In this document: positions 27,338 through 31,411 of the stretch, piece after piece
How positions within the stretch are numbered: the first letter of the stretch is position 1
How the letters are laid out: every line of letters begins with the position of its first letter
DNA from: an uncultured Spirochaetales bacterium
Lineage (GTDB): Bacteria > Spirochaetota > Spirochaetia > DTKZ01
Assembly: GCA_937991975.1 (NCBI GenBank)
Contig: CALKLC010000065.1
Coordinates: 1-36,682, forward strand
DNA: 36,682 nt
Reading direction: 5' to 3'
The notes under the pieces: model-generated
Seen by the model: the letters and a program-made list of their open reading frames with translations, nothing else
The model's database searches: none
What the model was told of the DNA's origin: nothing
Program-made: the position numbers and the translations under genes

Positions 27338-29752
27338 TCAGAGGACGATGTTCACCAGCTTATCCGGAACCGTGATGATCTTTTTGGGGGTCTTCCCGTT
27401 CACCAGATCCTGGATCCTCTGCTGATTCAGGGCGAGGGTTTTCAACTCTTCTTCGGTAAGCCCTGCGTTGGCCTGGACCTTTGCCCGCACTTTCCCATTC
27501 ACCTGGATCACGATGGTCACTTCCTCGTCCTTCGCCAATTCTTCGTTCCATCCCGGGAAGGGGACTTTGGAGATCGATGGGGGGTTCCCGAGTTTTTCCC
27601 ACAGTTCCTCTGCCAGGTGGGGAGCATAGGGGGCCAGGAGGAGTACGAAAGGTTCCCAGGCTTTGCGGGGAAGGGTTTCCAGCTTGAACAGTTCGTTCAC
27701 GAAGATCATCATCTGCGAGATCGCGGTATTGAACTCGAGCTTTTCCGTATCGAGGGCAACCTTCCGGATCGTCTTGTGCAGGAGGCGTTCCAGCTCCCGG
27801 GGAAGAGGATGGGTTGTAAGGGGCCGTTCGGACAGGCGCCAGATCCGATCCAGGAACCGGTGCACCCCAATCAGTCCGTTGGTGGACCAGGGCTTGGTTA
27901 CCTGCAGGGGGCCCATGAACATCTCGTACACCCGCATGGAGTCTGCCCCGTACTCTCGAACGATATCATCCGGGTTGATCACATTTCCCAGGGACTTGGA
28001 CATCTTCTGGCCGTCCTCGCCTAGAATCATCCCCTGGTTCACCAGCCGCATAAAAGGTTCGGGAGTGTTCACCACCCCGATGTCGTAGAGGACTTTGTGC
28101 CAGAACCGCGCGTACAGAAGGTGAAGCACCGCATGCTCCGCCCCTCCCACGTACAGGTCTACCGGCATCCAGTATTCGATTTTGTCTCTGGAAGCGAGTT
28201 CTTTGGAGTTATGGGGATCCAGGTACCGGAGGTAGTACCAGCAGGAGCCTGCCCATTGGGGCATCGTGTTGGTTTCCCTCTTTGCGGGGCCCTGGCATCG
28301 GGGACAGGTTGTATGAACCCAATCCGTAATGGCTGCCAGGGGGGATTCGCCCGTTCCTGTGGGCGCGTAGCTTTCCACCTCGGGAAGGAGCAGAGGAAGT
28401 TGCTCGTAGGGCAGGGGAACGATCCCGCACGTGGGGCAGTGGACCAGGGGGATGGGTTCCCCCCAGTACCGCTGCCTGGAAAAGACCCAGTCGCGGAGTT
28501 TGTAGTTCACTGCCCGTTTCCCCAACCCGCGTTCCTCCAGCCACTCGGTGATCCGCCTCTTGAACTCTGCGGTAGGCAAGCCGTTGAAGGATCCGGAATT
28601 GACAGCGATACCATCCTCGGTTTCCGCATGATCCATCGGGTACAGGGTTCCATCCTTAGACACCACCTGAACGATGGGGAGGTTGTACTTCCGGGCAAAA
28701 TCCCAGTCCCGTTCATCGTGAGCAGGGACTGCCATGATGGCTCCTGTCCCATAGGAAATGAGGATATAGTCCGAAATCCAGACGGGAATCCGTTCATTAT
28801 TTACCGGGTTGATCGCATAGGCTCCGGTGAACACACCTGTTTTCTCTTTGGCTAAATCGGTTCGTTCGAGGTCCGACTTCCGCCGGGCATTCTCCTTGTA
28901 CTCTTCCACAGCCTTTCGTTGTTCAGGGGTGGTAATGCGGTCTACAAGGGGATGCTCCGGCGCCAGTACCATGTAGGTGGCACCGAAGAGGGTGTCTGGC
29001 CGCGTAGTGTACACTTCGATGGTTCCCTCTCCCTTTTCCAGAGGAAAATGAACGTTGGCACCTTCACTACGGCCGATCCAGTTCCGCTGCATCAACTTGA
29101 TGGATTCAGGCCAATCGAGGAGGTCCAGATCTTTCAACAGCCGCTCCGCGTACTTTGTAATCCGGAGCATCCACTGTCGAATATCTTTCCGAACCACGGG
29201 CGTTCCGCACCGGTCGCAAGTCCCGTCCTTCACTTCCTCGTTGGCCAGACCCGTCTTACAGGAGGGGCACCAGTTGATGGGCACTTCGGCCTCATACGCC
29301 AGTCCCTGTTCGAACAGTTTCAGGAAGATCCACTGGGTCCATCTATAGTATTCTGGCTGGTGGGTTGAAATTTCCCGGTCCCAGTCGTATGAAAAACCAA
29401 GGGCCTTGATCTGCTGCCGGAAGCGGGCAATATTCTTTTCCGTGGTCGTCTTTGGGTGGGTTCCTGTCTTGATGGCATAGTTTTCGGCAGGAAGGCCAAA
29501 GGAATCGAATCCCATGGGATGCAATACCTGGTACCCTTTCATCCGCAGGAATCGGCAGTAAATATCCGTAGCGGTATACCCTTCCGGGTGGCCGACGTGA
29601 AGACCTGCGGCGGAAGGGTAGGGGAACATGTCCAAAACATACCGACGTTTTTCTTTGGGAATGCGAGGATCCTCCACTGTGCGATACGTCTTGTGGGTTT
29701 CCCAGTAGGTTTGCCATTTGCGTTCGATTTCTGTAAAGGGGTACTTGCTCAT
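27338..29752 (-). CDS. leuS: Leucyl-tRNA synthetase
   Basis: This 804-residue class I synthetase charges tRNA-Leu. The HIGH motif appears as HVGH at residues 52-55 ([20 protein letters not shown]), KMSKS at about 583-587, and the zinc-finger-like [21 protein letters not shown] is present. The CP1 editing domain has [19 protein letters not shown] and [15 protein letters not shown]. The C-terminus ends with the usual [11 protein letters not shown] and a short tail. Length is typical for bacterial LeuRS. The ATG at 29752 has no SD and sits 8 nt after a -10 box. It heads a two-gene unit with the M24 peptidase. Confidence 0.98.
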
Positions 29753-29760
29753 GGGTAGGT

Positions 29761-29789
29761 ATGATATCCAAAAGGGGAGGCAATAGCAA
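29761..29789 (-). promoter_or_regulatory. Leaderless promoter of leuS
   Basis: On the minus strand TTGCTA (29784-29789) and TATCAT (29761-29766) are separated by 17 nt. The -10 ends 8 nt before the ATG at 29752. The sequence between is pyrimidine-rich and contains no SD. No T-box or tRNA-like leader fits in this space. Confidence 0.6.
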
Positions 29790-29942: not shown

Positions 29943-29984
29943 AAAAAAAAGCCCTTCAGGAAAGGAGGTAGAAACCTGAAGGGC
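29943..29984 (-). terminator. Rho-independent terminator (HP4 of the small RNA)
   Basis: On the minus strand a perfect 10-bp GC-rich stem (GCCCUUCAGG/CCUGAAGGGC) with a 14-nt loop is followed by eight U. It faces away from the M29 gene and lies upstream of leuS, so it serves no annotated protein gene. This supports a separate transcript ending here. Confidence 0.75.
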
Positions 29985-30130
29985 AAGGTACTGGAATGCG
30001 ATGATTCACATCATCTGAAGGCTTCCAGGAAAGGAGGTGAAAACCTGGAAAGCGCTATTTCCAACTTGAACTTGATAGCTTTTTCTATATGTAACAACAA
30101 CGTTTTGCTTTCCTGGTTACAGGAAAGATC
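29943..30130 (-). ncRNA. Predicted small RNA with two anti-Shine-Dalgarno loops
   Basis: On the minus strand a promoter at 30137-30165 predicts a start near 30130 and a U8 terminator ends near 29943, giving about 188 nt. Four stem-loops are visible in order. HP1 (30108-30127) is 8 bp (CUUUCCUG/CAGGAAAG) with loop UAAC. HP2 (about 30021-30052) has a 9-bp stem with one bulge and the 14-nt loop UUUUCACCUCCUUU. HP3 (30000-30015) is 6 bp with a GUGA tetraloop. HP4 (29951-29984) has a perfect 10-bp stem and the 14-nt loop UUUCUACCUCCUUU, then U8. Both large loops carry ACCUCCUUU, the anti-SD sequence at the 3' end of 16S rRNA. No ORF is convincing. The layout does not fit the long hairpin of 6S RNA. 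Alpha-proteobacterial cuckoo RNAs have comparable CCUCCUCCC loops, but I know of no spirochaete family. Confidence 0.7.
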
Positions 30131-30136
30131 GCTCAT

Positions 30137-30165
30137 TTTTTACAGATTTTCGAATATTTTGTCAA
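30137..30165 (-). promoter_or_regulatory. Predicted promoter of the small RNA
   Basis: On the minus strand a perfect TTGACA (30160-30165) and TAAAAA (30137-30142) are separated by 17 nt. The expected start near 30130 lies only about 3 nt before the first stem-loop. Confidence 0.6.
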
Positions 30166-30250: not shown

Positions 30251-31411
30251 ATGACATTAAAGAACAGTGTGGGGCAGGGTTTCGTTTTTCTGTCATCCCG
30301 TGAACCAGAGCTCGATCATGCGGCGCGGGTAGCTATTATCGAATCCCTAAAGGTTCGGGAGGGCGAACGGGTGTTGATTGTAAGCAATCCTGTTCGGGAA
30401 GTGGCTACCATTGCCTTTGCCGTGCATGATGCCGTGCAGGAAGTGGGAGCTGTTCCTGTGCTTCTATTCCAGCCAGTAAAGACCCAGTTCGATTTTTGCG
30501 AGGACGCCGTTACGGCGGCCATTGCCACAGAACCGGATGTTGTGATTTCTCTCAGTGCAGAAAAAATGGGAAAAGATAGGCGCGCCATCAAGGAACCCTA
30601 CCTGGTCGACGGAAAATCGTACGATAACACCCTTCACTACTTACTCCATGGGGTTAAGAAGGTTCGAAGTTTCTGGAGTCCGGGAATCACCGTGGATTGT
30701 TTCATCCGGACTGTACCGGTGGATTACCAGCAGATGAAGCAGGATTGTAAAGCCCTGAAAACTCTTTTGGATCAGTCGGTTTCCCTGGAAATAGAAAATC
30801 CCAATGGCACGAAGATTCGAATTGGCACGGAAGGGAGAGAATCCTTTACTGATGATGGGGATTTCTCGCAGCCGGGGACAGGGGGCAACCTCCCTGCTGG
30901 AGAAACCTTCCTTTCACCGGTAGTAGGTTCGGCAGAGGGGACGATCGTGTTCGATGGAACGATTGCTTCGGCGGGCGGTGTAATCCGGATCCACACACCC
31001 CTACGGGTTACGCTGGAAAAGGGGTTCATCGTCTCTCTGGAAGGAGGCGAGGAGGCCCACATGCTCGAACAAACGCTGGACGAAGCGGCTACCAGAGCGC
31101 GGAGGTACGAAGCGGAAGGAAAACTAAAGGAGGGAGAGGGGGAACGGTACGCGCGGAACACCCGCCACCTCGGTGAACTGGGGATAGGGGTGAATCGAAA
31201 GGCCCGGATCACGGGGAACATGCTGGAGGATGAAAAGGTATACGGGACCTGTCATTTTGCCATTGGATCCAACTACGATGAGGATGCCCCCTCCCTCATC
31301 CATCTGGATGGGTTGGTCAGTAAACCGACTATTTATGCAGAATCAAAAGATGGGAATCGTCAGACAGTGATGAAAGAGGGGAGGTTCGCCTGGGAGTACC
31401 AAGGATCTTGA
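30251..31411 (+). CDS. M29 family aminopeptidase
   Basis: This 386-residue protein resembles the M29 (AmpS/aminopeptidase T) metallopeptidases. Expected metal or catalytic residues appear in NLPAGETFLSPV (Glu), RHLGELGIGVN (Glu), YGTCHFAIG (His) and LIHLDG (His, Asp). The N-terminal region (REGERVLIVSNPVREVATIAFAVHDAVQEVGAVPV) forms the family's first domain. It should release N-terminal amino acids in the cytoplasm. No SD precedes the ATG and the promoter predicts a leaderless message. Its end faces trxA, with a bidirectional terminator between them. Confidence 0.88.
   Translation: MTLKNSVGQGFVFLSSREPELDHAARVAIIESLKVREGERVLIVSNPVREVATIAFAVHDAVQEVGAVPVLLFQPVKTQFDFCEDAVTAAIATEPDVVISLSAEKMGKDRRAIKEPYLVDGKSYDNTLHYLLHGVKKVRSFWSPGITVDCFIRTVPVDYQQMKQDCKALKTLLDQSVSLEIENPNGTKIRIGTEGRESFTDDGDFSQPGTGGNLPAGETFLSPVVGSAEGTIVFDGTIASAGGVIRIHTPLRVTLEKGFIVSLEGGEEAHMLEQTLDEAATRARRYEAEGKLKEGEGERYARNTRHLGELGIGVNRKARITGNMLEDEKVYGTCHFAIGSNYDEDAPSLIHLDGLVSKPTIYAESKDGNRQTVMKEGRFAWEYQGS

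Follow-up and report, generated by a model that had tools for sequence, protein, structure and literature searches.

A predicted small RNA family of Spirochaetia with anti-Shine-Dalgarno loops and, at many loci, a promoter of the type found before an ECF sigma factor gene

The window, a stretch of 36,682 nt that derives from an uncultured Spirochaetales bacterium, contains a minus-strand locus without a protein gene between an aminopeptidase-like gene (30251–31411, plus strand) and leuS. Two overlapping forms of a small RNA (sRNA) that end at the same terminator are predicted at this locus, and the features are as follows, in the direction of transcription.

30160–30165, minus strand: −35 box (TTGACA) of P1, the sigma70-like promoter, followed by a 17-nt spacer
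30137–30142, minus strand: −10 box (TAAAAA, weak) of P1
29943–30130, minus strand: long predicted sRNA, about 188 nt, from the sigma70-like promoter (TTGACA-17-TAAAAA in congeners; fold z = −3.76)
30116–30121, minus strand: −35 box (TGTAAC) of P2, the ECF-type promoter (position weight matrix [PWM] score 19.6, p = 0.0007)
30096–30101, minus strand: −10 box (GTTGTT) of P2
29943–30089, minus strand: short putative sRNA, about 147 nt, from the ECF-type promoter
30021–30053, minus strand: hairpin 1 with an anti-Shine-Dalgarno (anti-SD) loop (loop 30043–30030; ACCUCCUUU at 30038–30030)
30000–30015, minus strand: middle hairpin, GAUGAUGUGAAUCAUC, without anti-SD sequence, invariant in four congeners
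29951–29984, minus strand: hairpin 2, the terminator stem, with an anti-SD loop (loop 29974–29961; ACCUCCUUU at 29969–29961)
29943–29950, minus strand: U8 tract of the intrinsic terminator (T8 in the DNA)
29761–29789, minus strand: putative leuS promoter, TTGCTA-17-TATCAT, 8 nt before the ATG
27338–29752, minus strand: leuS, the downstream neighbour, outside the RNA; it has a putative promoter of its own and its mRNA is probably leaderless

The TTGACA promoter with its 17-nt spacer and the U8 terminator are present where the original prediction had placed them, and TTGACA-17-TAAAAA is conserved in three to four congeners. An open reading frame of 38 codons opens the long transcript and is lost in congeners (in L002 a stop follows after 7 codons). 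The start of the short form (±3 nt) was placed by means of the fixed offset of 26–27 nt seen at ECF sigma genes, and the T8 was taken as its 3′ end. Four stem-loops had been proposed, three of which stand (30053–30021, 30015–30000, and 29984–29951); the first one, CTTTCCTGTAACCAGGAAAG at about 30128–30109, surrounds the −35 box of the second promoter and was rejected as an RNA domain because TGTAAC is kept as promoter DNA instead.

Both anti-SD hairpins expose the 14-nt loop UUUnnACCUCCUUU on stems that are unrelated in sequence (GCUUUCCAGG/CCUGGAAGC and GCCCUUCAGG/CCUGAAGGGC), and the loop on either has the form UUU(n)(n)ACCUCCUUU. The 16S rRNA of the window's genome ends in ...GGATCACCTCCTTTCT, its 3′ end also being given as GGAUCACCUCCUUUCU, and the loops thus copy the anti-SD of their own genome, as had been predicted. 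Within the window, ACCTCCTTTC occurs at the two loop sites only (0.28 occurrences expected). The RNA folds better than 200 of 200 dinucleotide shuffles (z = −3.76), and in the structure ensemble each of the two ACCUCCUUU loops is over 90% unpaired, although hairpin 1 does not appear in the single minimum-energy fold.

In many families the RNA lies just 5′ of leuS on the same strand, often in the order trxA-RNA-leuS, an arrangement that would also fit a leuS 5′ UTR in which the terminator acts as a cis attenuator of read-through. However, a separate leuS promoter motif is found between the terminator and the ATG in the window and at L005–L007, L046, L048, L049, L054, and L072, the leuS ATG sits near the −10 box of that promoter, the RNA is located away from leuS in many genomes, and no alternative antiterminator pairing was seen. 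On account of the leuS promoter motif downstream of the terminator, we set leuS attenuation aside as very improbable. As in the window, leuS (closest named relative 75% identical) seems to be leaderless at the same eight loci, which belong to several spirochaete families.

The original prediction had proposed a covariance-model search of related genomes and had not foreseen the spread of the RNA across the class. A BLAST search with a 223-nt stretch of the locus as a query identified three congeners and, elsewhere in the class, short matches that mostly centre on the terminator hairpin. A covariance model (R1) built on this hairpin, loop included, matched 192 of 395 genomes and 93 of 133 genera of Spirochaetia at E ≤ 0.05, the weakest matches including plain terminators without the motif (e.g., L100 and L102); at E ≤ 1e-4, about 133 genomes are matched (count from the table). 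Outside Spirochaetia the model has fewer matches, some of them behind tRNA genes. When named genomes were searched, the model matched 18 of the 30 that belong to spirochaetes and 2 of 20 outsiders at E ≤ 0.01; a Sphaerochaeta genome is among the carriers, as is Treponema vincentii OMZ 806. Over 70 distinct sequences, 97.4% of the stem cells are paired and all ten pairs show double-sided changes, a level of pairing and covariation reached by none of 500 shuffles, while the loop sequence CUCCUU is invariant across the alignment; fixed loops on changing stems had been anticipated. The invariance alone is partly circular because the R1 model contained the loop. Independent support for loop conservation is provided by a second anti-SD copy: two anti-SD 7-mers were counted, each with an expectation of about one locus, and 33 of the 70 loci have an extra occurrence in the 160 nt that precede the terminator. 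Anti-SD hairpins number two in the window RNA and one or two in its relatives.

In another class of the phylum, terminators with similar loops come after tRNA-Lys and tRNA-Glu genes (L093, L095, and L098), as would be expected if the matches were ordinary terminators whose loops are rich in C and U for unrelated reasons and that have no function in trans. Against this, which we regard as very improbable, the second anti-SD hairpin is no terminator, the loci have dedicated promoters and no open reading frame, and the loop is fixed over large divergence. At L093, L095, and L098 it is tRNA-Lys/tRNA-Glu clusters that close with CCUCCUUUU-loop terminators. The sequence evidence instead indicates a genuine RNA family that extends across much of Spirochaetia. 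No Rfam 15 family reached its gathering threshold for the window or 20 relatives, consistent with the claim that the sRNA is undescribed; scores for anti-hemB (RF02837; 14.8 vs. 49.5 bits) and sX13 (RF02232; 14.6 vs. 50 bits) fell short of the gathering scores. In the literature searched, we found neither a paper on an anti-SD sRNA in spirochaetes nor any account of a trans-acting sRNA that is conserved in Spirochaetia. More than one such RNA is present in some genomes (L059/L060/L385, L085/L086, and L089/L090). Besides L060, genome G221 has at L385 a further RNA with an ECF-type promoter and the terminator loop CCUCCUCC. In family f8, L106 and L108 represent a second sRNA-like locus that consists of a promoter, CCTCCAGTCCCCCC, and a terminator with the loop UUUUCCUCCUUU.

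The pattern of conservation also bears on what the loops might bind. Loop 1 and the 16S end of its own genome have UCACCUCCUUUC in common, and the loops could in principle titrate a binder of the 16S 3′ end (Era, bS1, bS21, or a maturation nuclease) or, as had been suggested, act as bait for a protein that mimics SD-16S pairing. However, conservation is limited to the CCUCCUU core and does not extend to the GAUCA flank of the 16S rRNA, and UCCUCC takes the place of ACCUCC in some genomes. SD pairing fits these observations better than exact 16S mimicry, so the bait idea is disfavoured and titration of a 16S binder appears improbable.

In 40 of the 70 sRNA loci, TGTAAC is found 60–220 nt upstream and is followed at a fixed distance by GTTT or GTTGTT. 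We rejected UGUAACC...GUUGUUU as a conserved 5′ RNA domain given that RNAalifold returned no structure; this result, together with the random interior and the rigid spacing of the element, led us to re-read it as a promoter, which in the window is TGTAAC-N14/15-GTTGTT (P2, 30121–30096). The original prediction had recognized the sigma70-like promoter and overlooked this ECF-type one; congeners retain both. A genome search with the pattern led to an ECF sigma factor gene in two distant genomes (L396 and L393), the product of which contains Sigma70_r2/r4_2 domains and for which each of 30 genomes tested has a single, clear ortholog, located next to cysS wherever its surroundings were read. We tested the promoter reading on these independent ECF genes: a TGTAAC-N14/15-GTTGTT-like motif immediately precedes the gene in all 30 genomes, with GTAAC and a GTT at +17/18 (in one genome at +14 only), most often in the form TGTAAC...GTTGTT. 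With a PWM derived from the ECF promoters, sRNA data excluded, 38 of 67 sRNA upstream regions exceed 99% of the null, including the window RNA (p = 0.0007). Exact matches to the pattern in the window's genome number two, one before the ECF gene and one before this RNA. The pattern as refined on ECF genes has 32 matches in 20 genomes versus 10 for the reversed control; the looser TGTAACCN{14,17}TGTTT is unenriched (22 vs. 23 control matches). With the promoter pattern as the starting point, anti-SD hairpins follow 6 of 13 non-ECF sites and none of 17 ECF sites. The window's sRNA, as judged from these patterns, carries the predicted promoter of the cognate ECF sigma factor, which would give the RNA a regulatory home. 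Such control would not be universal, because 29 of the 67 loci lie below the threshold, and many of these carry sigma70-type −35 boxes instead; among the 29 are the f8, f9, and most f42 loci, where sigma70-type boxes are the only ones seen.

The ECF gene of the window's genome precedes a gene for a Cys/His anti-sigma-like protein with a transmembrane segment and then one for a predicted exported protein. The former is predicted to be a membrane-bound zinc-type anti-sigma factor; the anti-sigma-like protein of L396 has no Pfam match. In 20 of the 30 genomes the ATG of the ECF gene is at the expected transcription start site, 26–27 nt after GTAAC, and from the nucleotide sequence we infer the promoter, the start sites, and an mRNA of the sigma factor that is probably leaderless. 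Such a messenger would offer the RNA no SD to pair with and hence would escape it. In the window's genus (30109–30128, minus strand, and L002–L004) the TGTAAC box lies within a short inverted repeat, the arms of which co-change between species (CCTG/CAGG, CCCT/AGGG, and ACCG/CGGT); this repeat is possibly an operator or a hairpin of the long transcript.

Pairing of a loop with AAAGGAGGU comprises 9 bp at −12.1 kcal/mol. Pattern searches of three genomes from the genus gave 5, 15, and 20 full 9-nt sites at SD distance, versus 7, 12, and 10 for the reversed-pattern control. With so few full sites, near the control count, global titration is unlikely, and the wide blocking of SD sites that had been suggested is not borne out. 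These counts point to a small set of strong-SD genes as the likely natural target set. The same scarcity might be taken to mean that the sRNA is real but acts through narrow extended pairings or on one dominant target, with the anti-SD core as a seed only. However, the loop flanks differ freely from one genome to the next, which leaves extended pairing without conservation, and we consider this reading about as improbable as titration of a 16S binder. Among spirochaete genes with a perfect AAAGGAGGT SD (loci L251–L346 and L347–L376), signal peptides or lipoboxes are found in 30 of 62 versus 52 of 266 (p = 7e-6). In genomes without an RNA match, 7 of 18 perfect-SD genes encode exported products, which is not significantly lower (p = 0.59); for this reason we dropped the enrichment as evidence of regulation, as it shows which genes the RNA would hit and not that it does so. 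Hfq (PF17209) was detected in none of 15 genomes, of which the window's is only 79% complete, versus 5 of 14 control genomes. An Hfq-dependent sRNA calls for Hfq in the genome, and by this sequence search the RNA does not appear to be one.

MicA and RybB are RpoE (sigmaE)-dependent envelope-stress sRNAs. The spirochaete RNA resembles them in its predicted ECF-sigma promoter and envelope-biased candidate targets; it differs in that no Hfq was found and in that its seed is a structured anti-SD loop rather than a single-stranded 5′ end. In the alpha-r14 (NfeR1)/cuckoo RNAs several hairpins with different stems present the same anti-SD loop and act at ribosome binding sites (PMC10746234), and CcsR RNAs are transcribed from the RpoHI/RpoHII stress promoter (PMC10253847). 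The likeness to alpha-r14/cuckoo RNAs that the original prediction pointed out holds for the loop logic, in which one anti-SD loop is repeated on stems that differ in sequence. However, their loop motif is CCUCCUCCC rather than ACCUCCUUU, they have three hairpins where the spirochaete RNA has one or two anti-SD hairpins, and the latter belongs to a different clade, has an ECF-type promoter and lacks an Rfam match; no DUF1127 partner as in alpha-r14/cuckoo was found among the ORFs adjoining the window RNA. The actinobacterial 6C RNA/B11 likewise has two C-rich loops, which act redundantly (PMC10470900), and is Hfq-independent, to judge from the title of a 2019 paper cited there ('independent of RNA chaperones'), as is predicted for the spirochaete RNA; its loops are poly-C directed against G tracts, and RF01066, which the Rfam search included, has no match in the window or in 20 relatives. 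RepG of Helicobacter pylori pairs through a terminator loop rich in C and U (PMC8295292), which parallels the use of a terminator loop as the seed; RepG differs in targeting a G-repeat, in its single loop, and in its unrelated sequence. We place the RNA in a new family, the working type of which is already known; it belongs neither to the alpha-r14/cuckoo nor to a sigmaE sRNA family, but its mode of action is, by analogy, best read as like that of both.

Conserved structure, fixed loops, a promoter common to the ECF gene, and undetected Hfq are computed results, from which we infer transcription, a stress signal, target pairing, and repression. It is quite probable that the RNA is a trans-acting, ECF-controlled, Hfq-independent sRNA with loops that would occlude strong SD sites. 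The membrane anti-sigma factor would release the class-wide ECF sigma factor, probably on envelope stress, and RNA polymerase would then read the RNA from TGTAAC-N-GTTGTT, with the sigma70-type promoter as an additional source in the window's genus. The two ACCUCCUUU loops, the second within the terminator hairpin, would pair with AAAGGAGGU-type SD sites and shut the paired mRNAs to 30S subunits without Hfq. Likely targets would be a few near-perfect-SD genes, many of which encode exported products such as lipoproteins and periplasmic binding proteins, and the apparently leaderless mRNA of the sigma factor itself would be spared. Given the anti-SD loops and a promoter that is often common to an envelope-stress-type sigma factor, the RNA probably silences translation of selected genes in stress. 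A further reading, which we consider unlikely, is a class-wide stress circuit in which an ECF sigma factor whose own mRNA is leaderless drives the anti-SD RNA, which in turn moves translation from SD-led to leaderless messages such as those of the sigma gene and leuS; if true, this would be a switch in the mode of translation initiation by a small RNA alone.

The family is present in most sampled genera of the class, oral treponemes included, and its promoter ties it to one ECF sigma factor, which makes a spirochaete envelope-stress regulon directly testable. The family also suggests a repeated origin of anti-SD loop sRNAs under the control of alternative sigma factors, in cells where strong ribosome binding sites are silenced without Hfq. 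The ECF-type pattern is also found before genes for a predicted multi-pass membrane protein (L448) and a predicted lipoprotein (L456), which are candidate members of the regulon.
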